The position numbers and the translations under genes are program-made. The notes under the pieces were generated by a model. That model was not told the origin of the DNA and did no database searches. It was given only the letters and a program-made list of their open reading frames with translations. Positions 2,497 through 40,369 of a stretch of DNA of 40,369 nt are shown here, piece after piece. How positions within the stretch are numbered: the stretch's first letter is position 1; the number at the start of each line of letters is the position of its first letter. The stretch covers positions 1-40,369 of IMG/VR virus record IMGVR_UViG_3300046008_001187. One strand, given 5' to 3'. Source of the DNA: a virus.

Positions 2497-2519
2497 AAAA
2501 TTATATCGTTGGACAAATA

Positions 2520-19994: not shown

Positions 19995-20357
19995 TTATCT
20001 CACGATGATGTTTTGAGTTGCCAAAGCGACAATCGCAGCGGTTTTGTTTGGTGCAGTGATACCTGCTTTAAAGATTAGTTTCGCGCCAGCCACTTCGGCA
20101 ATGCGCGTCAACACGGTGCAGGCTGTGTCGGCGGTGGTCGCGTCGGTGCTGTTTCGCAAAATCGCGCTGGCAATTTCGCTACCGTCGGTCGCCGCATTGT
20201 TGTGCAGCGTGTATTTTCCTGACGCGGTGATTTTGCCAAGCACGGTGCCAACCACTAAGTTTTGCCCAGTGATTAAAGTCACTTTTTCAACTGACAAAGT
20301 TTCCTCGCTCGAAAGCAAGAACTCCGCGCCATAAACGCCTTCTGTTTTAGTAGCCAT
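19995..20357 (-). CDS. head decoration protein (HDPD family, lambda gpD-like)
   Basis: A 120-aa protein: MATKTEGVYGAEFLLSSEET, then GTVLGKITASGKYTLHNNAATDGSEIASAIL, which is the conserved core of the lambda-gpD/HDPD capsid-stabilising family. The protein would bind the expanded capsid surface as trimers and stabilise the packaged head. Its ATG overlaps the protease/scaffold stop as TAATG. The position directly before the capsid gene is the expected one. The length is close to lambda gpD (110 aa). Confidence 0.88.
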   Translation of the reverse strand: MATKTEGVYGAEFLLSSEETLSVEKVTLITGQNLVVGTVLGKITASGKYTLHNNAATDGSEIASAILRNSTDATTADTACTVLTRIAEVAGAKLIFKAGITAPNKTAAIVALATQNIIVR

Positions 20358-20746
20358 TAGTTAGAACCTCTTGCGTTCATTTGGTGGTAAATTGCCGACG
20401 TGTTAATCGCTGGCTCGGTGGTTTTTTCTGCGCCGTCAGCGGCTTGTGTGCCGAATAAATGCGCGGGCAGGTTGGGTTTTTGTTCACCTTTTTGCGCGAT
20501 TAAATCGGCAGAAATGGTTTTGAATTGCTCTGCGTTAAAACTTAAATACGGTGCAGCAGTCAATTCGCTGTATTCACGACCTAATGCGGTGAACAACGAT
20601 TTAATCTCTGATTCACGAGCGAATTTCACGGCTTTTTTTGTTTCCGCTTGCAGTTCATCGAGCTGGGTTTTCATATCAGCGCATTGTTTTTTTAACGCCT
20701 TGTTTTCGTCTTGCAATGCAGTAATTTGTTCGGGGGTTAATGCCAT
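20357..20746 (-). CDS. nested scaffold protein from an internal start (Mu Z-like)
   Basis: Within the protease gene, an in-frame ATG at 20746 (MALTPEQITALQDENKALKK) is preceded by AAAGGA seven bases upstream, a strong ribosome site. The product would be 129 aa: a coiled coil of about 60 residues plus the C-terminal capsid-binding tail, and no protease domain. Mu (I and Z) and lambda (C and Nu3) make scaffold from exactly such nested starts. The site is seen in the sequence; that it is used is inferred. Confidence 0.72.
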   Translation of the reverse strand: MALTPEQITALQDENKALKKQCADMKTQLDELQAETKKAVKFARESEIKSLFTALGREYSELTAAPYLSFNAEQFKTISADLIAQKGEQKPNLPAHLFGTQAADGAEKTTEPAINTSAIYHQMNARGSN

Positions 20747-21283
20747 TTTTGAATCCTTTGGTGGTAGTTTGGGTTGAGAATTAAAGACGGTGGCAGAGGT
20801 TTTGTCGTCAGCACCCATCGTGACAAACGACACCTCTCTTATGCGATTGTTTTTCAAAAGGGCGAGTTCGCCTGTGTACGATTGCCCATTGATGCTGTGG
20901 GTTTGTGTTCCGTTGAGGTTTTCAGTTGATGCGGGAAAGATGCCGACCGACAGCTGCCACTTGATGCCACGGTCTGCCTTGGCTGCAATGTCTTTGGCAA
21001 CGTCGTCAATGTCAGCGAATAAACGCCCCGCAATTTCGATTTGTGTGCCGATTGACACGGTTTCGATTACGCCAATGGGCGAGCCGTGATGATTGAATAG
21101 CAATGGGAGTGGTGCTTCTGCGGTGGTGGTTGATAAATCAAAGGCAACCGCGTTAAACCATGAATGGTCAGTAATAACACCACCAGCATAGGCAACACCG
21201 CTAAAGGTGCGCTCACCTGTGGTTGTAGGTTTTGAAAGCTGGAAGTCAGCTAAGAAATGGAGGATTTGATTTTGTGTTTTCAT
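20357..21283 (-). CDS. prohead protease with C-terminal scaffold (Mu I-like)
   Basis: A 308-aa protein. Residues about 1-165 resemble the Mu I protease: LPLLFNHHGSPIGVIETVS (probable catalytic His region), KWQLSVGIFPAS and REVSFVTMGADDKTSATVF, which probably includes the active Ser. Residues about 180-240 form a scaffold-type coiled coil (LTPEQITALQDENKALKKQ), and the tail is flexible. The protease would mature the prohead and degrade the scaffold. It is the first gene after the candidate late promoter at 21321-21345, and it is followed by decoration and capsid genes with overlapping stops and starts. Mu has the same fused I/Z arrangement. Confidence 0.88.
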   Translation of the reverse strand: MKTQNQILHFLADFQLSKPTTTGERTFSGVAYAGGVITDHSWFNAVAFDLSTTTAEAPLPLLFNHHGSPIGVIETVSIGTQIEIAGRLFADIDDVAKDIAAKADRGIKWQLSVGIFPASTENLNGTQTHSINGQSYTGELALLKNNRIREVSFVTMGADDKTSATVFNSQPKLPPKDSKMALTPEQITALQDENKALKKQCADMKTQLDELQAETKKAVKFARESEIKSLFTALGREYSELTAAPYLSFNAEQFKTISADLIAQKGEQKPNLPAHLFGTQAADGAEKTTEPAINTSAIYHQMNARGSN

Positions 21284-21320
21284 GCGCGTTAGATTGCCCG
21301 TCGTGTATGGGGTTTTCTAA

Positions 21321-21345
21321 TCGCATGGTTTAGTAAAGTACGCGA
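21321..21345 (-). promoter_or_regulatory. candidate late promoter / activator site (PI-like copy)
   Basis: On the minus strand the site is TCGC-N4-TTTACTAAA-N4-GCGA, a 25-bp dyad with a perfect 9-bp palindromic core. The same architecture recurs only at 33790-33814, and both are followed by the shared GCGATTAGAAA. A weak -10-like TACACG lies about 28 bp downstream of the dyad centre, as expected for an activator-dependent promoter. It starts just after a terminator and drives toward the protease gene. In Mu the late promoter PI lies upstream of gene I and is activated by C. The Mor/C-like protein at 33.8-34.1 kb is the likely activator (inferred). Confidence 0.7.
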
Positions 21346-21358: not shown

Positions 21359-21385
21359 AAAAGCCCGACAGTTCGTCAGGCTTTT
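21359..21385 (-). terminator. bidirectional rho-independent terminator
   Basis: A stem of AAAAGCC and GAC (21359-21369) pairs with GTC and GGCTTTT (21375-21385), with one internal mismatch and a loop of about five bases. On the minus strand it ends in GGCTTTTTG, a T-run fit for termination. It lies 20 bp beyond the stop of the 144-aa gene and just before the candidate PI-like promoter. It would insulate the small-gene cassette from the capsid operon. Confidence 0.8.
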
Positions 21386-21405: not shown

Positions 21406-21840
21406 CTATTGGCTTGCCATAAAGGCTTGGTAGCACTCATCGCTCACTTCGATTTCGTCTGGGATAAAGTCGCCAATGTCGCGTCCCATCATAAAACGCT
21501 GGGGCTGGGCGTTGATGTAATAAGGTTCGCCATCCTCGTTGAATGGAGTGGCATAGACAATCCAATCACCCATGCCGCCAAGGTAGCAAAACCCCGCATC
21601 TTCTTTGATGACGAAGCCTGCATATTTTGGGTGGTTACTTTCGTAAATTCCGCCAATTGGCGGATTGGTTGTTTTAATTGTTGCCTCAATCTCGTTGTGT
21701 GGTGGGTCATCGACCTCAATCCAATCGACCACTTCACCTTCTATTTCGCCGTCGTGGTAAGGGCATTCAATGTATTTTTCTAAGCGTTTTTCAAGTGAAA
21801 TGTTGCCGCAAGTGCAGCAAGCAGGATTTCTGATTTTCAT
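21406..21840 (-). CDS. unknown 144-aa protein, last gene of small-gene cassette
   Basis: I do not recognise this protein. It starts MKIRNPACCTCGNISLEKRLEKYIECPYHDGE: three closely spaced Cys and a later Cys/His pair suggest a small zinc-binding head. The remainder is very acidic (EIEGEVVDWIEVDDPP, DGEPYYIN, DIGDFIPDEIEVSDECYQ) and rich in aromatic residues. Small acidic phage proteins can mimic DNA or occlude nucleic-acid-binding sites, which is one possible role but not shown. The ribosome site AAAGGAAAG is strong and matches the sites of its cassette neighbours. The gene is preceded by a GC hairpin at 21863-21882 and followed by a terminator. Confidence 0.7.
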   Translation of the reverse strand: MKIRNPACCTCGNISLEKRLEKYIECPYHDGEIEGEVVDWIEVDDPPHNEIEATIKTTNPPIGGIYESNHPKYAGFVIKEDAGFCYLGGMGDWIVYATPFNEDGEPYYINAQPQRFMMGRDIGDFIPDEIEVSDECYQAFMASQ

Positions 21841-21862: not shown

Positions 21863-21882
21863 GGCAGGGCTTTCGCCCCGCC
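21863..21882 (-). repeat. intergenic GC hairpin, copy 1
   Basis: On the minus strand GGCGGGGC-GAAA-GCCCTGCC, an 8-bp stem with a GNRA-type tetraloop, lies 9 bp after the 71-aa gene stop and about 20 bp before the next start. Related hairpins lie at 22308-22328, 22761-22782 and 23024-23043, always between small cassette genes. There is no T-run, so it is more likely an mRNA-processing, attenuation or stability element than a full terminator. Confidence 0.75.
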
Positions 21883-21891
21883 GCTGGTTGT

Positions 21892-22107
21892 TTAGGCGAT
21901 ACCCAAAATGTGAAGTTCGTTGTTTGTGTTTGCGTCAACGTTCACCCATTTGCCTTTTAAAAGTCTTTTGTTAACGAGGTCGCTTAGTTCGTCGTAGCCA
22001 AGTCCGCAGCGTCTTACCGTTCTTTCGATGTCTTTGCCAAGGCTGTTGTAGGCAGCCATAAAGGTTTCAAAGTTTCTTTTTGTTTTGTTGCTAATTCTTG
22101 CGCTCAT
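21892..22107 (-). CDS. small winged-helix-like protein A (paralogue 1 of 3)
   Basis: A 71-aa basic protein, MSARISNKTKRNFETFMAAY. By eye it shares a framework with the proteins at 22792-22998 and 23052-23270: a conserved early Phe, a helix ending A-x-R/RR, a Leu-rich helix with L(x)2-D/Q-L, the segment LLxGK/LITGK/LVTGE, a beta-hairpin-like stretch, and a final GI. This is suggestive of a compact winged helix-turn-helix. The ribosome site AAAAAGGAAC is good. It is transcribed behind the second copy of the duplicated leader. A possible role is autoregulation, like Aca proteins of anti-CRISPR operons, but this is inference. Confidence 0.72.
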   Translation of the reverse strand: MSARISNKTKRNFETFMAAYNSLGKDIERTVRRCGLGYDELSDLVNKRLLKGKWVNVDANTNNELHILGIA

Positions 22108-22120
22108 GTTAGTTCCTTTT

Positions 22121-22272
22121 TAGTTCGTTGTTTTAAAAGGCTTTTTTATGCCGTCGGGACACACATTGCCATTGACCATCGTGGTCAGCAAGTTATGAAA
22201 ACCAAAAAGCGCACAAAGCCTGCAACGCTTGGGCTACATGGCGTTTGAAATAGTTTTTTTAGTACCGCACTG
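22121..22272 (-). repeat. duplicated leader, copy 2
   Basis: About 150 bp upstream of the 71-aa gene repeats the leader at 23281-23450. Shared blocks, on the minus strand, include GCGGTACTAAAAAAACT, TTGCTGAC, AATGGCAATGTGTGTCCCG, then ACGGCA and TTTTAAAACAACGAACTA. Between them lies a degenerate version of the hairpin found intact in the other copy. TTGCTG and the AATGTG that follows about 18 bp later might be a promoter. No open reading frame is conserved in the repeat. Confidence 0.75.
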
Positions 22273-22328
22273 CCCACCCTGTTTTTGTTTTCGGTGGGCT
22301 TTGGGTTGGACGGGACTTTCGCCCCGCC
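22272..22328 (-). repeat. two adjacent hairpins after the 134-aa gene
   Basis: GCCCACC (22272-22278) pairs perfectly with GGTGGGC (22293-22299) around a 14-base T-rich loop. Beside it a degenerate member of the cassette hairpin family occupies 22308-22328, immediately after the stop of the 134-aa gene. Together they separate the 134-aa gene from the second leader copy and may reduce read-through. The stems are seen; the effect on transcription is inferred. Confidence 0.55.
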
Positions 22329-22335
22329 ACTGGTT

Positions 22336-22740
22336 TTATTCGGTTATGTCCTGCGCCGCTTTGGCAGCACACAATGCCGTGATGACCTGTGCCAGCGTTT
22401 CGTTTAGGTTCGGCGTGCCTGGGAACTGCTCTTGGTGCAGCCCGCTGGTTGCGAGTTCAAACAAGATGGCGTTGATTACCTGGGTCATTGTCTTTGCGCC
22501 AAACTCGTCGGCGATTTCAACGACCGCCTGTCCAACTTCGCCGAACTCTGTGGCGGCTTCTTTTAATTCGCCTGCCGAAACTTCGTAATTTTCGCCAAGC
22601 ACCGCAACGACCTTTTTTGCCGCCTCGAAAATTACGTCGTTTGCGCGGTCGGTGTCGATGTCGCCATTTTCGTCGAGTTCAAATTCGATGCTTGTCATCA
22701 AATCCAGTTGTTTTTTAGCTTCTTCATTTAATTTTTTCAT
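22336..22740 (-). CDS. unknown acidic 134-aa protein in the small-gene cassette
   Basis: Not recognised. MKKLNEEAKKQLDLMTSIEF is followed by ELDENGDIDTDRANDVIFEA, which may form a helix after an acidic loop; ELDENGDIDTDR has the spacing of a possible calcium-binding-type loop, but this is a weak resemblance. The rest is predicted helical and strongly acidic (GELKEAATEFGEVGQAVVEIADEFG). The ribosome site AAGGAAAGG is good. The gene sits between paralogues B and A, in the position where anti-CRISPR proteins of 50-140 aa lie in related phages. Function is unknown. Confidence 0.68.
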   Translation of the reverse strand: MKKLNEEAKKQLDLMTSIEFELDENGDIDTDRANDVIFEAAKKVVAVLGENYEVSAGELKEAATEFGEVGQAVVEIADEFGAKTMTQVINAILFELATSGLHQEQFPGTPNLNETLAQVITALCAAKAAQDITE

Positions 22741-22760
22741 TGCCTTTCCTTGTTTGGTTG

Positions 22761-22782
22761 GGCGGGGTGTTTAAACCCCGCC
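22761..22782 (-). repeat. intergenic GC hairpin, copy 3
   Basis: GGCGGGGT (22761-22768) and ACCCCGCC (22775-22782) form a perfect 8-bp stem with a six-base AT loop. The flanks (TGTTTAG on one side, TTTCCTTG on the other) match those of the hairpins at 21863 and 23024, although the loop differs. The stem is therefore conserved while its loop varies. Confidence 0.75.
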
Positions 22783-22791
22783 GCTTGTTGT

Positions 22792-22998
22792 TTAGTTAAT
22801 GCCCCAGATTACAAATTTCGCTTTGTTTTGGTTGTTGTAATACATCTTGCCAGTTATCAATTCCGCGAATTTCAAGTCTTCCGCTTGGTTTGCGGTAAGT
22901 TTCGATTCGCGTTGTGCTGCTGCGATGTCGTTGGTTTCTTTAAATGCCAAGATGAGCGATAAAAATTTGCGGTGTGTCGATGCTGTTAATGTTTTCAT
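22792..22998 (-). CDS. small winged-helix-like protein B (paralogue 2 of 3)
   Basis: A 68-aa protein, MKTLTASTHRKFLSLILAFK, with the same framework as A and C: early Phe, helix with AAAQRESKLTANQAEDLKF, LITGK, a short beta-like stretch and final WGIN. The likely fold is a small winged helix, which would bind DNA or a protein partner. A Shine-Dalgarno AAAGGAAAAG precedes it. It lies between hairpins at 22761-22782 and 23024-23043. Divergence from its paralogues is high, which suggests an old duplication or repeated acquisition of members of one family. No database identity can be given. Confidence 0.7.
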   Translation of the reverse strand: MKTLTASTHRKFLSLILAFKETNDIAAAQRESKLTANQAEDLKFAELITGKMYYNNQNKAKFVIWGIN

Positions 22999-23023
22999 GG
23001 TCTTTTCCTTTGTAGTTTTGGTT

Positions 23024-23043
23024 GGCAGGGCTTTCGCCCCGCC
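23024..23043 (-). repeat. intergenic GC hairpin, copy 4
   Basis: Identical over its 20 bases to the hairpin at 21863-21882 (GGCAGGGC-TTTC-GCCCCGCC on the plus strand). It lies between paralogues C and B. The identity over both arms and loop, while the genes beside it are strongly diverged, suggests selection on the hairpin or recent copying. Confidence 0.78.
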
Positions 23044-23051
23044 GTTGTGGT

Positions 23052-23270
23052 TTAAGCCGCGATGCCTGTGAGTTTAAAAATGAATCTTGGTTGGCGTGAG
23101 CCGATGTCAAATTTTGCTTCGCCTGTTACCAAACCCGCTTGTTTGAGTTCTTTAAGCTGGCTGAATGTCAGGTTGGTAGCGCGTCTTGCTTTAGCCAAGC
23201 AGCCTGTTTGTGCGTGTGCGTCTTTCAATTTTTGAAATTCTGCTTTTGTTGCTTCGTTTAATGCGCTCAT
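23052..23270 (-). CDS. small winged-helix-like protein C (paralogue 3 of 3)
   Basis: A 72-aa basic protein, MSALNEATKAEFQKLKDAHA. The start at 23270 was chosen because AAAGGAAAAG precedes it; the longer frame would include the repeated leader. ARRATNLTFSQLKELKQAGL followed by VTGE and a final beta-like segment (RFIFKLTGIAA) is the clearest winged-helix candidate of the three paralogues. It is the first gene of the cassette, directly behind the first leader copy and a terminator. The role is unknown; a regulator of the cassette is a reasonable inference. Confidence 0.72.
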   Translation of the reverse strand: MSALNEATKAEFQKLKDAHAQTGCLAKARRATNLTFSQLKELKQAGLVTGEAKFDIGSRQPRFIFKLTGIAA

Positions 23271-23280
23271 GGTCTTTTCC

Positions 23281-23450
23281 TTTGTAGTTCGTTGTTTTAA
23301 AAGGATTTTTCGTGCCGTCGGGACACACATTGCCATTCAATTTACGTTGTCAGCAAGTTAAGAAAATAAATCGAATCTTTAAAACGCAGAAAGCCCCGTA
23401 GCACTGGGGCTACGAGGCTTTCAGAAAGTTTTTTTAGTACCGCGCTGGCT
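23281..23450 (-). repeat. duplicated leader, copy 1 (with terminator)
   Basis: This copy spans from just after the gpG gene to paralogue C. It contains the intact terminator hairpin at 23389-23422, then a candidate promoter and leader that match copy 2 at 22121-22272. The match runs over most of 150 bp with gaps. It marks the start of an independently transcribed unit inside the head operon. Confidence 0.75.
23389..23422. terminator. terminator-like hairpin after the gpG gene
   Basis: GAAAGCC, CGTAGC pairs with GCTACG, GGCTTTC around a six-base loop, with one internal mismatch. T-runs flank it: seven Ts on the plus-strand side and TGCGTTTT on the minus-strand side. It lies about 30 bp after the gpG stop on the minus strand and would end transcription of the packaging and head-assembly genes before the small-gene cassette. 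Confidence 0.75.
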
Positions 23451-23452
23451 GC

Positions 23453-23914
23453 TTAGTGCATGGTTAGGTGCTGCTCGATAATGTCCACGATGTCCTCAGA
23501 CCACTGGTTTGGCAAAGCCGCCGTTGGCATAAAAGGACGGGCGGGAATATCCCCCCACAAATTTGGGAATTGCGCCTTCTTGCCACCGAAGCTCATCATC
23601 GCGGCTTGCGGGGCGTTTGTGCCAATCGTGACCGACTGTGCGCCTGCCTGAACCGTGAACGAGTTTTTTAAAACGCCCGTGTCGCTCAACGGAACACTTG
23701 AGCCTTGGCGGCGGTTTGCAATCGTGACGGGCGACAACGCCGCCCAGTTGATGCCGTCGGGCGATTTGGTGTCAACGAAACAAAGACGGATGTTCGATTT
23801 TAAACTTTGCCCGATTGAGCGCATTGCTGGTTGCAAATTGGTGACGGAGTTGCCTAGCTGCTGCAACCTTGCGTGCATCTCTGCGTTTTCAATTTGAACG
23901 GTGATGTCGCTCAT
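23453..23914 (-). CDS. virion morphogenesis protein (Mu gpG-like)
   Basis: A 153-aa protein of the Mu gpG / P2 gpS tail-completion family. Family-like features are SPDGINWAALSPVTI, LSDTGVLKNSFTVQ, SVTIGTNAPQAAMMSFGG and IPARPFM near the C-terminus. In Mu it follows the MuF gene (gp30), and here one small gene separates them. It is believed to act in head or tail completion. Its start overlaps the preceding stop in ATGA. It ends just before a terminator, so it closes the first part of the head operon. Confidence 0.88.
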   Translation of the reverse strand: MSDITVQIENAEMHARLQQLGNSVTNLQPAMRSIGQSLKSNIRLCFVDTKSPDGINWAALSPVTIANRRQGSSVPLSDTGVLKNSFTVQAGAQSVTIGTNAPQAAMMSFGGKKAQFPNLWGDIPARPFMPTAALPNQWSEDIVDIIEQHLTMH

Positions 23915-24322: not shown

Positions 24323-26461
24323 TTATACCTCCTTCAATTTAACAATCTGCCTGTTCTCTTTTTTGTCGAACTCGTTTGATTCGATAACAAATTTGCGTCC
24401 GCTTTGAATAAGGATTTCGCTTTCTGTACCGCCATATTCTGACAACTTGCTTATGTCCGAACCTGAGCCGTTTTTCAAGTCAAAGAAAAACACAGTATTT
24501 CCATCGTCCCTGAAATGCGGTATCCCAGTCATTTTTTTCGTTGTGCTTGAGAAGTGGTTTTCAGTAACTTGCTCTCCTACGGCGTATTTTTCAAGTTGTT
24601 TTGGCGTAAGCGACAGGTCGCGCCTGACTTCTCCAGAGTGAACATCTAGCTTTTTCAACGCTTTGTTTAGCACGTCCGTGAACATTGCGGCGGCATCTGA
24701 TTCAGCTTTGGTCACAACGTGTGTTGCCCACTTACCATTCACAGCGTTCAGTCTTCCGAACACTTTGTTTTCAGTGTATGAATAAACCACCTTATGCTCA
24801 AGCTCTGACAAACCCATCGCTCTCGCGTATTCCACTCCGTTTCTATATCTTGGTCTATCGAAATATCCGTCATCGACATCATAAAAATTGAGTGCGGTCT
24901 GGAGTTCTTTCGCATCAGCTGAGGTGTAATTTTTATAGTGAAGGTCGCCATACTCTTTGGCGATTGTCGCTTTAATTTTCGCCATTGATGGCGTTGGGTC
25001 GGATAATGAAGGATTGACCCAGTTTCCTTTGTCATCAAAGTTTTCTGGGAACTTCCATTTCATCGCTTTTAATGTGCCACTGTCCCACGTTGCGGCGATT
25101 GGGTCTTTTTGCGCCCCTTTGAGCTTCGACTTGGGGTTTTGATAACTTCCAGGGACGATTTCCTTTTTTACGTCGTCCCAATCCCAGCTTTCCTCAGTTA
25201 CTGAGTCTTTGATTTTGTTGCCAGTCTTCACGATTTTTGTATTTAACACGCCATCTTGGAATTTATATGGGTGCGAGATTTGAAGTTTGTCGAGATTCTC
25301 TGCCGTAACATACTTTGTGTCTGGGTCTGTTTGTGGCGTTTCGCTGGCTAATTTTTTCGTTGGTGTTGAAACTTGTGCTGGTTTCGGTGCAGGAACAAGA
25401 GCTGGCTTTTTCAACACTGTTTTTGGTTTTGCGCCGCTTCCAGGGGACGCTTCTTTTTTCACATCGTCCCAATCCCACGTTTCGCCCGTTTTTGTATCTT
25501 TGATTTTGTTGCCCGTTTTTACAAGGTCGGGATTAAACACGCCGTCTTGAAATTTATACGGGAACGCTTTTTGAACTTTATCAATATGTTCCTTTGACCA
25601 CGCCTTAGTTGATGGATGGTTTTGTGGCGTTTCGCTGGCTATTTTTGATGCTGGTTTTCCTTTGGGGATTGCCTTTGGCGGAGCATCTGCTGGAGTTTTA
25701 GCGACAATTTTATCAGCGTGCAGCGGGTCGTCTTTTGGCACAACGATTTTCTTTTTGAGTGTTTTCGCCAGCTTTGGTTCGACTGCTTTCGTGGCGGCTT
25801 TCGCCATCTTATCGGCGACCGCCTTGTTGATACCAGCCGTAATATCAGAGCCGCAGTTATAGTCCCAGCCCTTGTCTGGCTTCATTTTGTCGGGTTCGAC
25901 TTTTTTGTTTAAACCGTTGTCGCCGTTGGAGCGGGCTTGTGCTTGTTTTTCGCTGAGAGAAACCACGGAGCATCGACACCTGTACCCGTTGGCGGGGTAA
26001 TGTGCGTCCCAAAATGGGTCGTCAATGCGACGGATAATCCCATCGAGAGCGCGGTGGCTAGGACGAGTACGACTATCGTTAATCGCATCGTACATAAGGT
26101 AAGGTTGGTATTTTTCATTTTCTTTGAACTGCTCCCAATGCCCACGGTTGTAGGCGTTCTGAATGTTTGTGCGAAAGATGTTGTCGAGGCGGTGTTTCGG
26201 CAAACCTAAGTCTTGTACGGCAACTGAATCTTGCCATTGCTTGAACGATTGCCCATCCGCTAATTTTGCGGTCAGCGAATCAAGGACGGCTTGAAGTTGG
26301 TCAAGGCTTGCCACGCCAGCGATTGAGAAGTTTAACTGCCGTTGGATGCCTTGAAATTCACCGTAGTATTGCGCGGGCAACGCAATCCCTCGCGCTTCCA
26401 TTGCTGCAATCGCTTCTTCAAACGGGACGTTAAACCCAACGGACGCTGGACTATCTGGCAT
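24323..26461 (-). CDS. MuF head protein fused to an ADP-ribosyltransferase-like toxin domain
   Basis: A 712-aa protein. Residues about 70-170 are the MuF (Mu gp30 / SPP1 gp7) domain, ending in the conserved WDAHYPANGYRCRCSVVSLS. Residues 272-341 and 370-439 are two copies of a 70-aa repeat (IASETPQ...WDWDDVKKE). Residues about 500-712 resemble a mono-ADP-ribosyltransferase of the R-S-E class: R613/R614 in GEVRRDL, S638-S639-T640 in ENHFSSTT, and the E-x-E pair E680/E682 in GGTESEILI followed by GRKFVIES. MuF proteins are carried in the head, and some temperate phages fuse toxins to them. The start at 26461 overlaps the portal stop by 11 bases; an upstream start at 26488 is possible. Enzyme activity is inferred from motifs. 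Confidence 0.82.
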   Translation of the reverse strand: MPDSPASVGFNVPFEEAIAAMEARGIALPAQYYGEFQGIQRQLNFSIAGVASLDQLQAVLDSLTAKLADGQSFKQWQDSVAVQDLGLPKHRLDNIFRTNIQNAYNRGHWEQFKENEKYQPYLMYDAINDSRTRPSHRALDGIIRRIDDPFWDAHYPANGYRCRCSVVSLSEKQAQARSNGDNGLNKKVEPDKMKPDKGWDYNCGSDITAGINKAVADKMAKAATKAVEPKLAKTLKKKIVVPKDDPLHADKIVAKTPADAPPKAIPKGKPASKIASETPQNHPSTKAWSKEHIDKVQKAFPYKFQDGVFNPDLVKTGNKIKDTKTGETWDWDDVKKEASPGSGAKPKTVLKKPALVPAPKPAQVSTPTKKLASETPQTDPDTKYVTAENLDKLQISHPYKFQDGVLNTKIVKTGNKIKDSVTEESWDWDDVKKEIVPGSYQNPKSKLKGAQKDPIAATWDSGTLKAMKWKFPENFDDKGNWVNPSLSDPTPSMAKIKATIAKEYGDLHYKNYTSADAKELQTALNFYDVDDGYFDRPRYRNGVEYARAMGLSELEHKVVYSYTENKVFGRLNAVNGKWATHVVTKAESDAAAMFTDVLNKALKKLDVHSGEVRRDLSLTPKQLEKYAVGEQVTENHFSSTTKKMTGIPHFRDDGNTVFFFDLKNGSGSDISKLSEYGGTESEILIQSGRKFVIESNEFDKKENRQIVKLKEV

Positions 26462-27938
26462 GAGCGAAACCAATGCAATCAGCAGCAAACGTGGCTCGCT
26501 CTAAAACTTGGCGAAATTTGGCGGTGTCGGTTTCGTCAAAAAGTACCGCTAGACGATTGGCGAGGTCTTCATAATCGCTCGCCGCTTTGATGGCGTTAAA
26601 AATTGAACCTTCGGGAATCGGGCTTTTTAGATTTGCCAACACGTCGTCGGCGAGCGTTTCAATTTCTTGTTGGTTGGGTGTGAATTTGGGAACAATTGTT
26701 CCCAAAAATACGTCACGCTCTGATGTGAATTTAATCGGCTGGTTGGATGCGGCAAAGTTCGTAGATTTCGTTCCGCCAATTGGCGGATTGGAGTTTGGCA
26801 AAACGGCTGGTGGAATCTCAAAATCACCGTCTTCGTAATCATAAACACGCAACAAATAATCAGGCGTGAGTTTCAATATCCCCGCGCTTACCAGTCTTGC
26901 ATCACGCTCGGAACGGTCAACCTCCAAGCCCGTGTTGTCTTCCATGACAAACGTCGGTGGCTCGCCCGTAAATCCGTTTAACGTGTGCAGTGCATTGACC
27001 AACGTCTGCACGTTTTTTGAAACCAACCGAATGTCTGCCCGTTTTCTGTCCTCGAGTACCGATTGATGCACTTTCGCTGCTGCAAATGAACCGCTTGAAC
27101 CTACGTCGCTCGTGAGTGTTTGACCAAGAATGACCTTTTGAATTCTTTTTAAAATTGCGGTTTCAAATTGTTCAAAGGTCGCGCCGTTTTGCTGCACGCT
27201 CATAAATTCTGCTGTCCAACCATCGGGCAATGCCAGCGTGGCGTTTTGCACCGCCGCATTTAACACCGTCGATAATCTATCAACGGCAGGCGTGCCGTCG
27301 GGCAAAGGCATATCAGGCGCAGTCCCTTTTAAAAACGGAATGCCAGCGCGTTCAAGATTCTTCGCCCAGAATTTCCATCCGTTCACGCGAAATAACCATG
27401 CCCAATAAAGCCGCGACAACAACGCTTCGCCGTAAGGTTGGCGGTAAGTTTCGTTGCGAATCGTGAGTAGGAATTTGTATTGCGTATCAACCGCTGTTCC
27501 CATTGGGTCGAGCATCGAACGGTAAATCAAATCGCCATTACTTTTAGGTTCAAACCATTCAAACGGTTTTTCGCTAACTTCTTTTAAGCCAATTCTGCCA
27601 TCAGGTAATTGCTGATAAATCACCTCCTGCACGCTGTAGCCGTATAAAACCGCGTTAAATGCCCCGCGTAATGTGGCGGTAATCACTCGTTCAATTTCAC
27701 GCCATAGAAAGTTATTTTGTCGAACCAGACCCGACTCTAAACGCCACGGCGTAGCAATTAAGGCTTCGCGGCGAGTTTCAATCGCGGCATAAATTTCGTC
27801 ATCGGATTCAAGGGCGCGGAGTTCTTTGCGATGAATGCCCAGCTTTTTTAGTGTCTCGTCGGTGTCCGCCATTTGCAGCAGATTGTTGAGTAAATAATCA
27901 ATCGCTTGTTCGTTATAAAGTGCTTTCGGTGCTGACAT
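26451..27938 (-). CDS. portal protein (DUF935, Mu gp29-like)
   Basis: A 495-aa portal protein that forms the dodecameric ring at the head vertex through which DNA is packaged. Typical DUF935 blocks are TLKKLGIHRKELRALESDDE, ETRREALIATPWRLE, RGAFNAVLYGYSVQEVIY, FEWFEPKSNGDLIYR and YGEALLSRLYWAWLFRVNGWKFWA. The start at 27938 (MSAPKALYNEQ) is preceded by GGAGG and follows the terminase stop by one base; the longer frame runs into the terminase gene. The C-terminus continues the MuF start, so packaging and head genes are coupled. Confidence 0.93.
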   Translation of the reverse strand: MSAPKALYNEQAIDYLLNNLLQMADTDETLKKLGIHRKELRALESDDEIYAAIETRREALIATPWRLESGLVRQNNFLWREIERVITATLRGAFNAVLYGYSVQEVIYQQLPDGRIGLKEVSEKPFEWFEPKSNGDLIYRSMLDPMGTAVDTQYKFLLTIRNETYRQPYGEALLSRLYWAWLFRVNGWKFWAKNLERAGIPFLKGTAPDMPLPDGTPAVDRLSTVLNAAVQNATLALPDGWTAEFMSVQQNGATFEQFETAILKRIQKVILGQTLTSDVGSSGSFAAAKVHQSVLEDRKRADIRLVSKNVQTLVNALHTLNGFTGEPPTFVMEDNTGLEVDRSERDARLVSAGILKLTPDYLLRVYDYEDGDFEIPPAVLPNSNPPIGGTKSTNFAASNQPIKFTSERDVFLGTIVPKFTPNQQEIETLADDVLANLKSPIPEGSIFNAIKAASDYEDLANRLAVLFDETDTAKFRQVLERATFAADCIGFAHAR

Positions 27939-31278: not shown

Positions 31279-31753
31279 TGTCGCGCTCGATGATAATTTT
31301 CATGGGTTCGTTGTTTTGCTGGGCATTGGTGTTGTTAATGACCGCGCTGGTGGGGTAATACGGCACAACGCCTGACACCTTCATTGTTGAAACCAGCGTG
31401 TCGGCGACAATTTTGCAGTCGATGGGCTTCGGGTCATTGCCCATTGATTTCACCGCCATGCTGGCAACTTTTAGCCCCGCCTTACTGAACCATTCCCGCG
31501 TTTTTGTAAGCTCATCAATCCCTTCAACAACGACCTGCTTAACTGTTGATTCCAGTGTTGACAATTCACTCGCAACCCGCGCCCCGTCTTGAATAAGCTG
31601 TTGATAAATTCCTTTCTGCCAACCTTCTTTTTTTGCCTTCCTACTGATTAAGGCGCGGTCGATTCCTGTTGCGGAACTTATTTCGCTGAGGCTTTTGCCC
31701 GTTTCAAAAAGTGCCTTTGCTTGCGCCCATAATTGCGGTGTTGCCTTAGCCAT
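31271..31753 (-). CDS. terminase small subunit-like protein
   Basis: A 160-aa protein. Residues 1-45 form a helix-turn-helix (LWAQAKALFETGKSLSEISSATGIDRALISRKAKKEGW) of the type that recognises phage DNA packaging sites in small terminases. Residues 55-110 are helical and would oligomerise. The C-terminus is flexible and ends MKIIIERDNG. Position, size and HTH all fit the small terminase. It overlaps the methyltransferase gene by 8 bases. The large subunit is not the next gene, because five structural genes intervene. Confidence 0.78.
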   Translation of the reverse strand: MAKATPQLWAQAKALFETGKSLSEISSATGIDRALISRKAKKEGWQKGIYQQLIQDGARVASELSTLESTVKQVVVEGIDELTKTREWFSKAGLKVASMAVKSMGNDPKPIDCKIVADTLVSTMKVSGVVPYYPTSAVINNTNAQQNNEPMKIIIERDNG

Positions 31754-33032
31754 CGCCTAGCACGTTGAATAACGCCCCGTTGCTTTCCAAATTGGCTTCT
31801 TTGCCCGTTAATTCCTGCCAGCGGCGAACAATCACGTCGCAGTATTTCTCGTCGAGTTCCATCAATCGAGCGATACGGTTAGTTTTTTCGCAGGCAATCA
31901 TGGTCGTGCCGCTGCCTCCGAATAAATCTAAAATTGTTTCGCCATTGTTTGAACAATCCAGAATGGCATCGACCACCAGTTGCGTGGGTTTTACGGTGGG
32001 GTGCATTTTGGATTCTGCGTTTTCACCCGTTTGAGTTGCCATTGGATAATCCCAAACATTGGTGCGATAGCGTCCCGTTTGCCCCAGTTGAAAGTTGTTG
32101 GTGTGGGTTTCTGTGCCGTTTTTATAGGCAAAAATCAGCTCGTGTTTGCTGCGGTAAAACGTTCCCATGCCGCCGTTGTTTTTATTCCAAACGCAGAGAT
32201 TTTTGAGTTCGGTGTAAATTTCGCCAGCGGCAGTGAGTTCTTGAATGTGCCGCCAATCCATGCAGATGTAGTGAATTGAGCCGTCTTTTGATGATGCAAT
32301 CAAGCAAGTGAACGCAGCGCGTAAAAAGTCAGTGAATTCGTCTTTGGTCATTTCTCCCGAAGCCATTTTGAATTCACCGTGAATTTTGCCGATGCCCGCT
32401 TTTGACGTGCCGCTTCCAAGCCCCACGATTTTTACGTTGTACGGTGGGTCAGTAAAAACCATGTCAGCTTTATCGCCACCCATTAGCGTGTCCACCGCAT
32501 CAATGCTGGTGCTGTCGCCGCACATCACCCGATGATTGCCACACAACCAAACGTCGCCCAGTTTCGTAATCGGTACGAGTGGTGGTTCTGGCACGGCATC
32601 AAGGTCGGCATCGTCGTCAATTGTAGATTCGTCATCAATCGTCAAATCGAAATCATCAAAGCCTGTCAAATCTAGGTCGAAACCTAATTCGTCGAGTTCC
32701 GTCAATTCAAGACGCAGTAAATCCATGTCCCATTCAGATTCGCTGACTTTATTGTCGGCGATGCGAGCGGCTTTGGCTTGTGCAGGTGTGAGGTCGGTGC
32801 GAACGATGACGGGGATGGTTTCCATACCCAGTTTTTTACAGGCAAGCAACCGTCCGTGACCTTTAATGACCACGTTGTCAGCATCCACCACAATCGGCAC
32901 GTCGTGACCGTATTCCGCAATCATTGATGCTAATTTATCAATCTGAGCTGGCGGGTGTTTTTTGGTGTTGTTGGCGTAAGGAATCACACTTTCGATAGCA
33001 ACCCGAATAATTTGTGCGTCAAATTTGTTCAT
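31746..33032 (-). CDS. ParB-like / DNA methyltransferase fusion
   Basis: A 428-aa protein. Residues 5-115 form a ParB/Srx-like domain with VIKGHGRLLACKKLGM at 55-70. A short acidic linker (122-147) follows, then a beta-class N4/N6 methyltransferase with DPPY at 195-198 and motif I FGGSGTT at 371-377; the motif order IV then I is that of the beta class. Such fusions are widespread in transposable and siphophage genomes and are thought to modify phage DNA against host restriction or mark packaging sites. It lies between endolysin and small terminase, with ATGA overlaps. Its target sequence cannot be read from the sequence. Confidence 0.93.
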   Translation of the reverse strand: MNKFDAQIIRVAIESVIPYANNTKKHPPAQIDKLASMIAEYGHDVPIVVDADNVVIKGHGRLLACKKLGMETIPVIVRTDLTPAQAKAARIADNKVSESEWDMDLLRLELTELDELGFDLDLTGFDDFDLTIDDESTIDDDADLDAVPEPPLVPITKLGDVWLCGNHRVMCGDSTSIDAVDTLMGGDKADMVFTDPPYNVKIVGLGSGTSKAGIGKIHGEFKMASGEMTKDEFTDFLRAAFTCLIASSKDGSIHYICMDWRHIQELTAAGEIYTELKNLCVWNKNNGGMGTFYRSKHELIFAYKNGTETHTNNFQLGQTGRYRTNVWDYPMATQTGENAESKMHPTVKPTQLVVDAILDCSNNGETILDLFGGSGTTMIACEKTNRIARLMELDEKYCDVIVRRWQELTGKEANLESNGALFNVLGDG

Positions 33033-33759: not shown

Positions 33760-33789
33760 ACATTAAGGATTTGTAGATGAGGTTTCTAA

Positions 33790-33814
33790 TCGCGTGGTTT
33801 AGTAAAACGTGCGA
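33790..33814 (-). promoter_or_regulatory. candidate late promoter / activator site (Plys-like copy)
   Basis: The dyad TCGC-N4-TTTACTAAA-N4-GCGA on the minus strand is the same as that at 21321-21345, with conserved flanks TTTTCGC and GCGATTAGAAA. A -10-like TACAAA lies about 30 bp downstream of the centre. It sits between the activator gene and the holin, the location of Plys in Mu. Binding by the Mor/C-like protein is inferred. Confidence 0.7.
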
Positions 33815-33825: not shown

Positions 33826-34131
33826 TTATCGAAACAAATCGCCTTGACGTTTTTTACGTTGAAGACCGATGATTTTGCAGATTTGTTGGTAGCTCAAGTC
33901 GTATTCTCGACAAAGCGCAACATGATTTCTCCCATTAAATTTTGACCAGATTTCATCATTACGAGAGGTGAGTTCTTTTGATTTTGGCAGATACAACGGT
34001 ATTCCGCCGTAATTTTTACGGAATTCCCATGTGACCCTCGTGCTTATACTGTCCGCGACTTCCGATTCAATTGCACAGGCTTTGAGTTCACGCGCCAAAA
34101 ACTCGCGCATTTCAGATAAGAAATTCGACAT
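33826..34131 (-). CDS. Mor/C-family late transcription activator
   Basis: A 101-aa activator of the Mu Mor/C family. The N-terminal dimerisation part ends in the characteristic NYGGIPLYLPK, and the C-terminal helix-turn-helix is NHVALCREYDLSYQQICKII. In Mu, Mor activates the middle promoter and C activates the late promoters; only one member is present here. The gene is preceded by GGAGG and a perfect TATAAT -10. It lies directly before the late operon, beside one copy of the 25-bp dyad that is its likely target. It is the rightmost gene with clear phage identity. Confidence 0.92.
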   Translation of the reverse strand: MSNFLSEMREFLARELKACAIESEVADSISTRVTWEFRKNYGGIPLYLPKSKELTSRNDEIWSKFNGRNHVALCREYDLSYQQICKIIGLQRKKRQGDLFR

Positions 34132-34298: not shown

Positions 34299-35555
34299 TT
34301 ATTTTTCACCTGCTGCTATAAAATCACGATAAGTTTTATCCCATTCCATTTTTGGAAATTTTTCTTTTATTGCAATTAAAAAATCGGACTGATTTAGCGT
34401 TTCAAAAGTAACGTCTTTGTAACGTTTTTCAATTTTCATTTCTTTGATAATAGATTCTGATTTTGGGAAAACCCGCTCCAACTCGCTATCTAGCCAACAT
34501 TCAACATCTTCTTCCGAAAGTGCTTCTGAAAGTAATTGTCCTCTCAGAGAATCGGGAGGGTTTTTCATAACCGTTGGTTTGTAATAATCAATTACTTGCT
34601 TTCGTGAATTATTAAGCAACATTTGAAGTTCTTCTTCTACTTTTGTCTGATGGTTCTTCAGCTTTATTTGAAATTCTTCAATACGTTTTTCAAAAAGTGG
34701 TTTTGCGGCTTTCGATAAAACCCGTCCATGATTTTTACCCAGAGACTTTGCAAAATTATCACGAATTTCGTTAAACTCCCCCTCCAATATTTTTGAGGAT
34801 AATGCGTCATTTTTTTCAATTAAATCGAAAGTAGTCTTTAATCTTCCCTCTAAGTCTTTGCCAGCACCTAATTTTTGAATGCTTATTGGTATTGCCAGTT
34901 TATGCCGCTGTATTGCAACACCAGTTAGGCTAAGTTCAACATACTGAAAATAAGATTCAAATACTCGAACCTGTCTGGCAATATCAAACTTTACAGGAGG
35001 TGCTAGCTTTAAACTTTCATCAACACGCTTGAATCTTTCAACATCCACTTCGATTGAAGTGATTTCGACGGGTAAATTTGATATACGCTCTTTTTCTTCA
35101 ATCGTGGTAGCTTGAGCGACTGCAATGGCTTTAGCGGCTGGCGATAATCTAGTGAGAGCTTCTTTTGTTTGTTCTGGTGATAATCGCAATGCGTTAATTG
35201 CCGTTGTATTTTCAGCTTCTAAATACAACGGAGTTGGCGTGTAGCTATAACCGTCATCATCAACAATTAGCAGGGCTTGGCGTATTCCCTCGGCATGATT
35301 AACAATCATCCCCGCTTCACGAAGTAAATTGATTGCCTCCAAACTTCCATATCCCAAACGCAATGTTCGTTCGTCAAAATCAATCGATACAGTTAGCATT
35401 TCAACGCCGAGTTTTTTTGATGCTTCTACGAGAGCCTGTGCGGGTTCAAGTTGGATGCTTGGCGCAGAGTAGCAAACAGTTGTTTCTGCCTCGCTTATCA
35501 ATTCTGCGATGCGTTTTGAAGTGAGGTTACAAAAGATATTTTCATTTTTAGACAT
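34299..35555 (-). CDS. unknown 418-aa protein, possible PLD-like N-terminus, coiled coil
   Basis: The last gene of the three-gene operon. Residues 1-115 (KRIAELISEAETTVCYSAPS, KKLGVEMLTVSIDFDERTLRLGYGSLEAINLLREAG, RQALLIVDDDGY) have the beta-alpha pattern of a phospholipase-D-like module, but no HxK motif is visible, so any nuclease activity is doubtful. Residues about 230-330 are long charged helices, probably coiled coil. The C-terminal 90 residues (CWLDSELERVFPKSESIIKE) are unrecognised. The start overlaps the ATPase stop as TAATG, so translation is coupled. The family is not known to me. Its partnership with an SMC-like ATPase and a methyltransferase suggests a defence function, by context only. 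Confidence 0.6.
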   Translation of the reverse strand: MSKNENIFCNLTSKRIAELISEAETTVCYSAPSIQLEPAQALVEASKKLGVEMLTVSIDFDERTLRLGYGSLEAINLLREAGMIVNHAEGIRQALLIVDDDGYSYTPTPLYLEAENTTAINALRLSPEQTKEALTRLSPAAKAIAVAQATTIEEKERISNLPVEITSIEVDVERFKRVDESLKLAPPVKFDIARQVRVFESYFQYVELSLTGVAIQRHKLAIPISIQKLGAGKDLEGRLKTTFDLIEKNDALSSKILEGEFNEIRDNFAKSLGKNHGRVLSKAAKPLFEKRIEEFQIKLKNHQTKVEEELQMLLNNSRKQVIDYYKPTVMKNPPDSLRGQLLSEALSEEDVECWLDSELERVFPKSESIIKEMKIEKRYKDVTFETLNQSDFLIAIKEKFPKMEWDKTYRDFIAAGEK

Positions 35556-36922
35556 TATTTCAAACCTTCCAAAGCCATTTCCAATTGTTCAATTACCGCG
35601 ATAGCCTTACCGACTTCATTTTTTGTAATATCAACGATGCGTGAATGGCTTAATGGATTAAGCACTACAGCCCGATAAAGTTCAACATTACTCACCAGTT
35701 CTGGGTCGAGTCCAAATGCTTTCACCGCTTGCCAAAAATCTTCACTTTGTAATTTTTTCGCATCTTTGCAATATCGAACACTTAATTTTTTCTTGTCACA
35801 AAAATTCTTTAACGTAATTTCAAAAGCTGTCCGCGCATAAACCGCCGCCGCTTTATAATCACCATTCAACAAGTATTTGTTTGCTCGCTCTAAATCATTT
35901 TCATAATCAATCGGCAAAATAGGCGATTTCACATCATTCGGGCAATAAAACTCGGCGTACTTCCATTTCCATGCTTTGTTGGCTTCTGTTCGCATTTTCA
36001 TCATGTCAAACCACAGTTTGTCATGCGTGATAAAGAAAATTTGATGCTCAGAAAAATGTTGTTCCAAAATATCAATCACAGGCAAACGATTTGCCATATC
36101 CAAGCCAATTAAAACATCGTCTAACGCTAAAATTCGTAAATCACTTTTTGGTTGTTCTAACAATGACGCAAAATAAATTGATAATGCAATTGCCGATAAT
36201 CGCGCTTCATTTAAAAAATCATGGTGGGTTGGAATTGAACGATTAAAAAACTTTATATCGAGCCACAATATCTGCATCACAACGCTAAATGTGAAATTAC
36301 AAATGATTTGATAATCAAAGAAAGCCAGTAACTCATTGGTTTTATCCGTCAAATTAGCCAATGCTTTTTGAAGTACGTCATTCATGAAATGCAGTTCTTC
36401 TGGATATTCTTTTTTGTAAGTATTTGTGTTCTTTTTGGCTTTTGATTTTTTCTGTACACTTTGCCAAATTTCACCAATCGTTCTGCCCGAACTGGATTCC
36501 GTATAATCAACGAGCAAATTTTCAACTAACAAATGAAACAAATTAACGCTTTTTTCTTCTTGCTTGCGGTGTAAAAAATGTGTTTCCAACAAACTTTTAT
36601 AATCTAAAAAGCCTTTGGTTTTATTGGCATCCAATATAATCGGCGCGTCTGGAAATTTCGCTGGCAACCATTCATAAGCATTTTTGCCAATGGTTAATTT
36701 AACGAAACCATCGTCATCATCTTTAACAAAAATGTTCCGATGTTCTGAAAATTCAGTTTTGGCATTCGCCGATTCTAAAAACAGTTTCAGCGCGTAAAAC
36801 AGCGACGATTTACCACTGCCATTTTCACCATAAAGCAGCAGATTTTTACCACCGAGTTCAATTTCAAAATTACCGTAAAACGCTCTGAAATTTTGGATTT
36901 CAATTTTTTTAATTCGCATCAC
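35555..36922 (-). CDS. SMC-like AAA ATPase with C-terminal HEPN/DUF4145-like region
   Basis: A 455-aa protein (or 454 from the ATG at 36919; the GTG at 36922 gives the longer form). KKIEIQNFRAFYGNFEIELG and the Walker A GENGSGKSS at 32-40 are typical of ABC/SMC-like ATPases. Walker B is ILALDDVLIGLD (D268-D269), where a second Asp replaces the usual Glu. H300 in FFITHD is the switch histidine. Residues about 345-455 (NGDYKAAAVYARTAFEITLK ... YRAVVLNPLSHSRI) look like a HEPN/DUF4145 helical domain with R417 and H426. There is no long coiled coil. The gene overlaps its neighbours at both ends. A role as sensor or effector of a defence operon is inferred. Confidence 0.82.
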   Translation of the reverse strand: MMRIKKIEIQNFRAFYGNFEIELGGKNLLLYGENGSGKSSLFYALKLFLESANAKTEFSEHRNIFVKDDDDGFVKLTIGKNAYEWLPAKFPDAPIILDANKTKGFLDYKSLLETHFLHRKQEEKSVNLFHLLVENLLVDYTESSSGRTIGEIWQSVQKKSKAKKNTNTYKKEYPEELHFMNDVLQKALANLTDKTNELLAFFDYQIICNFTFSVVMQILWLDIKFFNRSIPTHHDFLNEARLSAIALSIYFASLLEQPKSDLRILALDDVLIGLDMANRLPVIDILEQHFSEHQIFFITHDKLWFDMMKMRTEANKAWKWKYAEFYCPNDVKSPILPIDYENDLERANKYLLNGDYKAAAVYARTAFEITLKNFCDKKKLSVRYCKDAKKLQSEDFWQAVKAFGLDPELVSNVELYRAVVLNPLSHSRIVDITKNEVGKAIAVIEQLEMALEGLK

Positions 36923-39900: not shown

Positions 39901-40369
39901 GTAATAATGACTTGTATTCGCTTTAACTGTGTCACTGATTTGAGGTTTGAAATCGTTTAATTGCGATTTAATCCAGTCTTCATTAAATAAATTTTCTGGA
40001 ATTAGATTTTTTTCTTTGATAAACCAAACGAATAACAAACGGGTTAGCAGTCGAATAAGATTTTTTGCGTTATGTTCTCGGACTTTTTTTGAATCTGCAA
40101 AAACGCTTCCCTTTACTGACTCGATTTGTTCGGCATCAGGAAAATAAACTTCATCTATTGCCCAGAAATACCATTGCGACAATTCTTTATAGAACTGTTT
40201 GTTAAGCATTTTGGTATCTAAAATGGCTTGCCAAGCGTTGTGTAAATCAACAAAATTGGCATCGGCTTTCAAATTCAAATTATCAAATGCTAACTCTTCC
40301 AAAATAGCTACATGAGCAGAGTGAGGTTTGTTGATATGAATATCTTTAAGTAAGGTAACTTTTTCTAAA
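36919..40369 (-). CDS. Eco57I-type DNA methyltransferase / type IIG-like protein, 5' end off window
   Basis: At least 1149 residues are visible. The frame stays open to the right edge through KDIHINKPHSAHVAILEELAF, so the real start lies outside the window, and the TTG at 40302 should not be used. Motif order is N-terminal LLTRLLFVWFIKEKNLIPENL, GSFYTPREIVDYM, motif I DPACGSGAF (about 39093-39119), motif IV NPPY (38425-38436), then a C-terminal TaqI-like target-recognition region ending near YQLDKEPLLDIPVY. This is the gamma-class N6-adenine methyltransferase arrangement of Eco57I-like proteins. No PD-(D/E)XK nuclease is evident in the visible part; one could be in the missing N-terminus. Stop and next start overlap, so it is co-translated with the ATPase. 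Confidence 0.87.
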   Translation of the reverse strand, partial: LEKVTLLKDIHINKPHSAHVAILEELAFDNLNLKADANFVDLHNAWQAILDTKMLNKQFYKELSQWYFWAIDEVYFPDAEQIESVKGSVFADSKKVREHNAKNLIRLLTRLLFVWFIKEKNLIPENLFNEDWIKSQLNDFKPQISDTVKANTSHYYRAILQNLFFASLNRVVKERKFCSPNNQKDTTLMHYQSYFNDSEVFLDLVKNIVPFMNGGLFDCLDKYVLDAEGNPCGDAIVCEDSFSDDSNNQLDVPDYIFFGSYKNVDLSDDLGAKNKAVEVRGLIDILKSYKFTITENTPVEEDIALDPELLGQVFENLLASYTPETKTTARKQTGSFYTPREIVDYMVDESLKAYFKSKLESLNASNLLGDHDLVGISRKTDLFERLEDLFSYTKATPEFSATEKTTLIKAIDTCQILDPACGSGAFPMGVLHKLVFVLTKIDPHNILWKKRQIDRVQDFKLQKRIIETFTDNEVNYSRKLYLIENCIYGVDIQPIAIQISKLRFFISLIVDQRIDRDKPDKNFGVLPLPNLETKFVAANTLIGIENSKSQIDLFHNKDVEILKKDLKEIRHKLFSARNPSKKQKYRDEDKELRKEIVTLLEQHGGENNTVQQLLSWNSYDQNASASFFDVEWMFGESGFDIVIGNPPYIKEYTNKAAFDGLRDSPYYQGKMDLWYLFVCKNLEITKKNTGILTFIATNNWTTNTGASKMRSKVLKETTIEKLLDFGSYMIFESADIQTSVMMFRNDNSNDNYTFDFRRLVGDKLTFNDALDLITKTKSPKNEFLSAKISKNDLDGKSLTFSNNALDNVLSKIQKKSNLHLTKNEVANGIHPHYDYVSKATQSVLGDNFEVGQGIFVLSEKERVDLNLNGKELELIKPYFTTEQLRKWCGKKENKEWIIYTGSTFKDAANIEPYPNIKKHLDQFQSVITSDNKPYGLHRARNEYFFQGEKIIALRKCVGEPIFTYTDFDCYVSATFYVIKSERIDLKYLTAVLNSKLVAFWLKNKGKMQGQNYQLDKEPLLDIPVYKSDENQQQLVSRLVDYILFIKQQPFYTSADLDFAEERLMSNFFENLIDALVYELYFPEELHEAKKQFMSLVVQENLPDLDVIEGDKVSALKQIVRRLTDKNHPLYNNLFFLDSVPVVRIIEGKA

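Follow-up and report, generated by a model that had tools for sequence, protein, structure and literature searches.

The viral record IMGVR_UViG_3300046008_001187 of IMG/VR (positions 1 to 40,369; "the window" below means this whole stretch of 40,369 bases) carries, within its minus-strand late genes, an island of small genes between the gene of a gpG-like virion morphogenesis protein and that of a head maturation protease. Five genes separate these two, encoding in order proteins of 72, 68, 134, 71 and 144 aa. The 72-, 68- and 71-aa proteins were found to form one family of small basic proteins with a likely winged helix, and the island, judged by gene order, occupies the slot in which Pseudomonas Mu-like phages carry acr-aca operons. 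Our preferred reading, given a probability of about 0.42, is that the three winged helix-turn-helix (wHTH) proteins would be small autoregulators, Aca-like in function, and that their two acidic neighbors would be effector-like.

Three related small basic proteins

The three open reading frames (ORFs) lay where the preliminary description of this DNA had placed them, all on the minus strand:

23052..23270 (-): predicted wHTH paralogue 1, 72 aa, pI 10.0, opening the island; start codon ATG at 23270, stop codon at 23052; weak HTH_34 match (E 0.012)
22792..22998 (-): predicted wHTH paralogue 2, 68 aa, pI 9.6
21892..22107 (-): predicted wHTH paralogue 3, 71 aa, pI 9.6, the most diverged, with its own leader copy upstream

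A longer frame of 94 aa, starting at 23336, is also open for the first gene, and the Shine-Dalgarno sequence AAAGGAAAAG precedes the 72-aa start. The pI values of 9.6-10.0 put all three among the five most basic of the 38 window proteins.

Sequence comparison showed clear homology between the 72- and 68-aa proteins, with 34% identity and a local alignment score of 79 against a shuffled mean of 24 (z 11.7; none of 2000 shuffles as high). The 71-aa protein shared just 20% identity with the 72-aa protein, and its local scores against the other two were reached in 5 and 10 of 2000 shuffles. Its global alignments with them gave z 5.1 and 5.0, scores not reached in 2000 shuffles each. In a search with a profile that combined nine 72/68-type sequences of several phages and excluded the 71-aa protein, this protein ranked third among the 389 window ORFs at E 6e-4, the next ORF following at 0.46, while the profiles of the 72 group (E 0.13) and the 68 group (E 0.35) taken singly were not significant. 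From the rank and E-value with the combined profile and the global z, the 71-aa protein is taken as a real but remote third member of the family. The paralogy of the three, for which the preliminary description had proposed a profile comparison, was thus supported by the local z of the 72/68 pair and, for the 71-aa protein, by the combined profile.

The list of shared motifs given in that description held for the 72- and 68-aa proteins and in part for the 71-aa protein. All three share an early Phe, a Leu-rich helix, the Gly of the turn and a terminal GI; the 71-aa protein lacks the A-x-R motif, with VRR instead, and the Thr of the "TG(K/E)" turn, where it has LKGK. The predicted third helix begins with TFSQ, TANQ and, in the 71-aa protein, GYDE. 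These differing starts are consistent with the different recognition-helix surfaces that had been suggested.

The AlphaFold model of the 72-aa protein (pLDDT 66.6), made from nine sequences with the 71-aa protein excluded, contained helices at 6-22, 25-31 and 36-44 and strands at 48-55 and 60-67. The model of the 71-aa protein (pLDDT 81.0), made from ten sequences, contained helices at 7-22, 27-34 and 38-46 and strands at 50-58 and 62-70; it is no independent test of homology, because its alignment presumes homology. Both models thus consisted of three helices followed by a two-stranded wing. In VIA-align the LexA DNA-binding domain ranked first for both, with Z 6.3, 62 aligned residues, rmsd 2.7 and 21% identity for the 72-aa model and Z 5.1, 59 aligned residues and rmsd 2.7 for the 71-aa model. 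The other matches were, going by their titles, mostly winged helices, including PefI (71 aa) at Z 5.0 and 4.0, respectively. The likeness to the LexA N-terminal domain, PefI and other small winged helices lies in topology and length; with identities of 8-21% and Z below 8 the resemblance is at the fold level only. A winged helix is therefore likely for the family, as the same predicted topology was obtained twice and the best structural matches, at modest scores, were winged helices.

Searches of Pfam, PHROGs, NCBIfam and PDB sequences with the small proteins returned nothing beyond weak matches to wHTH families, namely HTH_34 (E 0.012, below the cut-off) and SdpR and ArsR (both E 0.13). Among 50,697 phage records, tblastn returned four records at E 0.5-1 for the 72-aa protein, one at E 0.1 for the 71-aa protein and none for the 68-aa protein.

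The island, its slot and its hairpins

The head genes around the island and the parts of the island itself are as follows:

29217-27940 (-): terminase (Terminase_6N)
27941-26451 (-): Mu-type portal (Portal_Mu, E 3.5e-63)
26470-24323 (-): gpF-like protein (Phage_Mu_F, E 1.5e-26)
23453..23914 (-): gpG-like virion morphogenesis gene, flanking the island (PF05069, E 2.6e-19)
23271..23452 (-): leader 1, an intrinsic terminator followed by the conserved leader
23422-23389 (-): intrinsic terminator after gpG, 14 pairs
23024..23043 (-): hairpin GGCGGGGC-GAAA-GCCCTGCC after the 72-aa gene
22761..22782 (-): hairpin after the 68-aa gene, TTAAAC loop
22336..22740 (-): acidic 134-aa protein, pI 4.2, the most acidic of the 38 window proteins tested; found together with the wHTH genes
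22308..22328 (-): hairpin after the 134-aa gene
22108..22270 (-): leader 2, the copy before the 71-aa gene, 93% identical to leader 1 over 61 nt and about 80% overall
21863..21882 (-): hairpin after the 71-aa gene
21406..21840 (-): acidic 144-aa protein, pI 4.3, the second most acidic of the 38
21359..21385 (-): terminator-like hairpin with a T run, closing the island (fold of the gap between the 144-aa and protease genes)
21316..21334 (-): late-promoter-like site ACTAAACCATGCGATTAGA before the protease gene
20357..21283 (-): head maturation protease, flanking the island (phrog_3244, E 2.4e-30)

A 136-aa gene lies between the gpF-like and gpG-like genes, and the protease is followed by a decoration protein and then capsid E. 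In tblastn the gpG-like protein matched phages DMS3 and JBD24 with 34.6% identity over residues 4-130 (E 1e-11). JBD24 has the order terminase, portal, minor head, gpG-like, type I-E anti-CRISPR, type I-F anti-CRISPR, a "winged helix-turn-helix" protein, a small minus-strand ORF, protease and major head, and in DMS3 the slot holds a type I-E anti-CRISPR, a wHTH gene and then the protease. This wHTH gene, which the records do not name so, is presumably aca1. In a passage of one study, plastic sites are termed RGPs, and RGP G bears anti-CRISPR genes (PMC4378225); a passage of another gives acrIF7 and aca1 as the RGP G genes of phage H70 (PMC10155984). The gpG homology, the gene orders and these two papers place the island in the same slot as the acr-aca operons.

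The DMS3/JBD24 locus (RGP G) and the window share the succession of terminase, portal, gpF-like, gpG-like, a small-gene operon with an HTH gene, head protease and capsid, and in both the small-gene content is variable. The acr-aca locus has one aca gene, in the last position, whereas in islands of the window type between one and three related wHTH genes occur, mostly at the start of their unit. The window island also differs in having its own terminators, a late-promoter-like site and intergenic hairpins, and no known acr was found in it. Its proteins share with the Aca proteins (Aca1-10) the small size, the predicted DNA-binding fold and the position beside a small-gene operon, and autoregulation has been proposed for the Aca proteins. 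Against Aca1, the only Aca compared, the wHTH proteins gave an hhalign probability of 0.4% and no sequence relation. A passage on the Aca families describes a conserved inverted repeat inside the core promoter (PMC9410906), whereas the window island has no conserved inverted repeat in a recognizable core promoter.

Within the structural operon the island is bounded by its own transcription signals. With a terminator ahead of it and a terminator-like hairpin and a late-like site behind it, the island appears to break into the late operon yet to be insulated from it. The ACTAAACCATGCGATTAGA-type site is a CTAA-N9-TTAG dyad, of which the window contains exactly two copies against 0.09 expected. 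The second copy (33785..33803, minus strand) stands before the late operon and downstream of the gene of a Mor-family transcription activator (33826..34131, minus strand; PF08765, E 6.5e-20). We infer that the site is a Mor-dependent late promoter, the dyad possibly being the binding site of that activator. Phage morons typically comprise one or two genes under a sigma-70 promoter. Like them, the island adds genes to a late operon, has terminators on both sides and is a mosaic that varies among relatives; unlike them, it strings together several genes with recurring hairpins and has no recognized promoter.

Twelve leaders were 73-99% identical to one another despite standing before first genes of six kinds (72, 73, 71, 68, 98 and 96 aa), and AAAAGCCTTTT is an element of the leader. 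The only inverted repeat common to most of them, AAAAG-C-CTTTT near the start codon, was present in 11 of the 12. The leader as a known RNA family was discarded, as Rfam gave only a chance match (E 0.78).

Ten records, the window included, span gpG to the constant gene of the island, that is, the gene for the C-terminal 90 aa of the 144-aa protein (the 144-aa family, alignment A8), which recurs across relatives. Gene sizes in aa are given in order:

Window and L003, with the same order in L004: 72-68-134-leader-71-144
L005: 72-68-134-93
L007: 73-134-92
L049 and L050: 73-135-157
L014: 68-134-about 96
L032: 98-68-159
L061: 96 alone, without a wHTH gene
Fragments: L006 (73-134), L031 (73-aa member, then contig end), L058 (135-96), L063 (134-241)

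Nine of the ten full islands hold one to three wHTH genes. Among close relatives the island is present or absent and mosaic, its contents differing in the window, L004, L005, L007, L014, L032, L049/L050 and L061. The 73-aa member of L031 (12757-13084) differs at its C terminus and lacks a post-stop hairpin up to the contig end; recombination or misassembly would account for it. No family match above the cut-off was obtained for the 134-aa protein, nor any tblastn match in the same phage records. PDB sequence searches gave no useful match for the 134- and 144-aa families, and PADLOC, run on these and other proteins with the three wHTH proteins outside the query set, gave no lead for the two.

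A hairpin folds behind the stop codon at 24 of 25 island gene junctions, the exception being that behind the L031 wHTH gene. In a ten-record set all 24 junctions gave dG values of -11.6 to -20.2, with hairpins starting 6-12 nt past the stop, except the first of L058, at a cut end (+1). The loops were mostly GAAA or TTAAAC-like, and the weakest hairpin was that between the 134- and 93-aa genes of L005 (z -1.7). Within the window the exact pattern is confined to the island, and neither strand of JBD24 or DMS3 matched it. In L049/L050 both arms are changed (CUGGGGC-GAAA-GCCCCAG versus GGCGGGGC-GAAA-GCCCUGCC) and the position and the GAAA loop are kept, which, with covariation judged by eye and from single folds, suggests a role at the RNA level.

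The preliminary description had paired each paralogue with a hairpin. A hairpin does follow each of the three, but the pairing is not specific, because the 134-aa gene and nearly all junctions in relatives have one too; the hairpins thus belong to the island and were rejected as a signature of the paralogues. They were likewise rejected as host repeats, since metagenome-assembled genomes (MAGs) G001 and G002 (2.6 and 2.8 Mb) contain one exact match each, that of G002 in the prophage island and that of G001 in another island fragment, and as coding-strand terminators, since no T run stands behind them.

Signs of exchange, proposed function and competing explanations

Nei-Gojobori rates of synonymous (dS) and nonsynonymous (dN) change were calculated between the window and five relatives (L005, L014, L007, L032 and L050). 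The wHTH genes had dS of 0.15-0.70 in all five phages. For the 134-aa gene, present in four of them, dS was 0.21-0.66. In each phage these values lay below those of gpG (0.51, 0.70, 2.30 and twice saturated) and the protease (0.60, 0.96, 1.40, 1.40 and 1.55). The constant island gene (0.34, 0.55, 1.04, 1.39 and 1.15) was closer to the flanks in the more distant phages. Because their dS lies below that of the flanks, the wHTH and 134-aa genes look as if they have been exchanged horizontally between diverged phages. Within groups dN/dS was 0.10-0.30 for the 68 type, 0.14-0.50 for the 72 type and 0.16-0.29 for the 134-aa gene, compared with 0.06-0.22 for gpG (pairs of finite dS) and 0.01-0.08 for the capsid. 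The 72 group therefore exceeds the capsid and at its upper end gpG, and may be under relaxed or locally positive selection. The rates lend no support to arms-race selection behind the diversified inhibitors suggested earlier.

In acr-aca operons a basic helix-turn-helix regulator can stand next to small acidic effectors, and it is this pattern that led us to favor autoregulators with acidic effectors. In the mechanism we propose, a prophage of aerobic methanotrophs with a Mu-type head would carry a self-contained accessory (moron) island in the acr-aca slot. The three 68-72-aa proteins would bind DNA as small autoregulators of the accessory genes, and the acidic 134- and 144-aa proteins would be the effectors, perhaps anti-defense proteins. 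Extra wHTH copies would have arisen by gain of units, the 71-aa gene together with the second leader, and the post-stop hairpins may serve as mRNA punctuation or protect the 3' ends between units.

Several observations weigh against this reading. Foldseek returned no match at E <= 0.001 for either model, although absence from its lists is no evidence for a new fold, and VIA-align Z values below 8 may reflect a mere common arrangement. The GYDE start of helix 3 in the 71-aa protein is acidic and poor for DNA contact. No operator was found; the repeat shared by most of the leaders is broken in leader 1 of the window, and no sigma-70-like promoter was found in the island region, against 2.2 expected by chance. 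The leader is retained in L061 despite the lack of a wHTH gene and, given the six kinds of first gene, does not track the wHTH type. The wHTH gene leads the unit in most islands, whereas aca follows acr. No known acr gene was detected in the island by the family libraries, a weak negative because NCBIfam also missed the two annotated Acrs of JBD24. Low dS in short genes may also reflect codon constraint.

Ranking second, and rather unlikely, is an inhibitor function in which the wHTH proteins themselves are anti-defense effectors against CRISPR-Cas, restriction or other systems, the winged helix being a protein-binding scaffold and the paralogues serving for different systems. It would account for the position of the wHTH genes, mostly first after the leader like the acr genes of JBD24 and DMS3, for their gain and loss as single copies, for the faster evolution of the 72 group than of the capsid, for the varying helix-3 starts and for leaders without wHTH genes. 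On the host side, Cas1 was matched, in many cases weakly, in 176 of 237 host-family genomes, and G001 carries a CRISPR-Cas operon with 54 repeats (L067, G001:C86, 3741-15190), which from its gene order we take to be type I-C-like. The purifying selection on the 68 group speaks against such effectors, as do the 53 spacers of G001, none of which matched the phage loci better than shuffled spacers; no Acr family was matched, in a weak test.

Lysogenic-conversion morons, with wHTH proteins that regulate host genes or block superinfection in an island without an anti-defense role, are an unlikely alternative in view of the slot, which is the anti-CRISPR slot in related head modules. The leader and terminators of the island would suit them, as would cargo after the constant gene of other islands: a HipA-like kinase (PF20613, E 6e-7) with a 288-aa partner before the protease in L014 (4040-5697) and, directly behind that gene in L058 (930-2330), a 466-aa DUF4062 protein (E 4e-30).

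A more speculative model, to which we attach little probability, describes the island as a recombinase-free cassette array. Its unit would be a Shine-Dalgarno box, a small ORF and a stable post-stop hairpin, and units or whole islands with their leaders would be swapped or stacked by homologous recombination at the repeated joints among phages of one host group. The wHTH proteins would then act as exchangeable types of regulator or immunity factor, and which incoming islands a prophage silences would depend on its combination of 68-, 72- and 71-type proteins.

Very improbable is a post-transcriptional circuit in which the small basic wHTH proteins would bind the recurrent RNA hairpins and control in what ratio the island proteins are made. 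The hairpins, found at all 24 junctions of the ten-record set and without copies elsewhere in the window, are constant in position and shape with changed arms in L050; but they also occur in L058 and L063, without visible wHTH genes though these are fragments, and the L031 wHTH gene has none. Scarcely credible, finally, is a 71-aa protein that is unrelated and similar by composition only, since its 20% identity, the non-significant single-group profiles and the homology assumed in its model's alignment are outweighed by the combined profile, the global z of 5, the same topology and the same leader upstream.

Hosts, further window genes and implications

Two MAGs carried relatives, L031 in G001 and L032 in G002, and the profile of the small proteins matched the same two among 237 host-family and 311 host-order genomes. 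Both contain the particulate methane/ammonia monooxygenase subunit PF02461 (E <= 8e-129), found in none of 14 controls, so the hosts are inferred to be aerobic methanotrophs.

Further genes of the window were noted in their own right:

1756-716: tyrosine integrase
2191-3002 (+): MqsA antitoxin (E 2e-18) paired with an MqsR-like toxin (E 3e-5, just below the cut-off)
24323-26470 (-): gpF-like protein with a long C-terminal extension containing a two-copy repeat; Pfam at E 0.01 matched Phage_Mu_F only
31746-33032 (-): DNA methylase (N6_N4_Mtase, E 1e-27) with a weak match to the ParB N-terminal domain (E 0.0018)
34299-40302 (-): 1127-aa type IIG/PglX-like methyltransferase (Eco57I, E 5e-34; PADLOC REase_MTase_IIG, E 2e-59), SMC/AAA-like ATPase of 455 aa and a family-less protein of 418 aa

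The gene trio at 34299-40302 looks like a defense locus carried by the prophage. The C-terminal end of the gpF-like protein, with its SSTT ... ESEIL motif, may resemble an ADP-ribosyltransferase.

That this slot can hold small HTH genes and accessory genes was already known; what the present case adds is a wHTH family of several genes, a unit structure punctuated by hairpins and an insulated double island. In a literature search covering titles and the starts of abstracts, with subscription papers mostly outside its scope, neither such a wHTH family nor, in the open literature, anti-CRISPR or anti-restriction genes with regulators in methanotroph phages were mentioned. If the slot serves anti-defense here too, the island would provide candidate anti-CRISPR or anti-restriction genes together with their regulators in methanotroph phages. 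The island also offers a clear example of small-gene modules that appear to move between diverged phages and that have a recurring RNA hairpin where they join.

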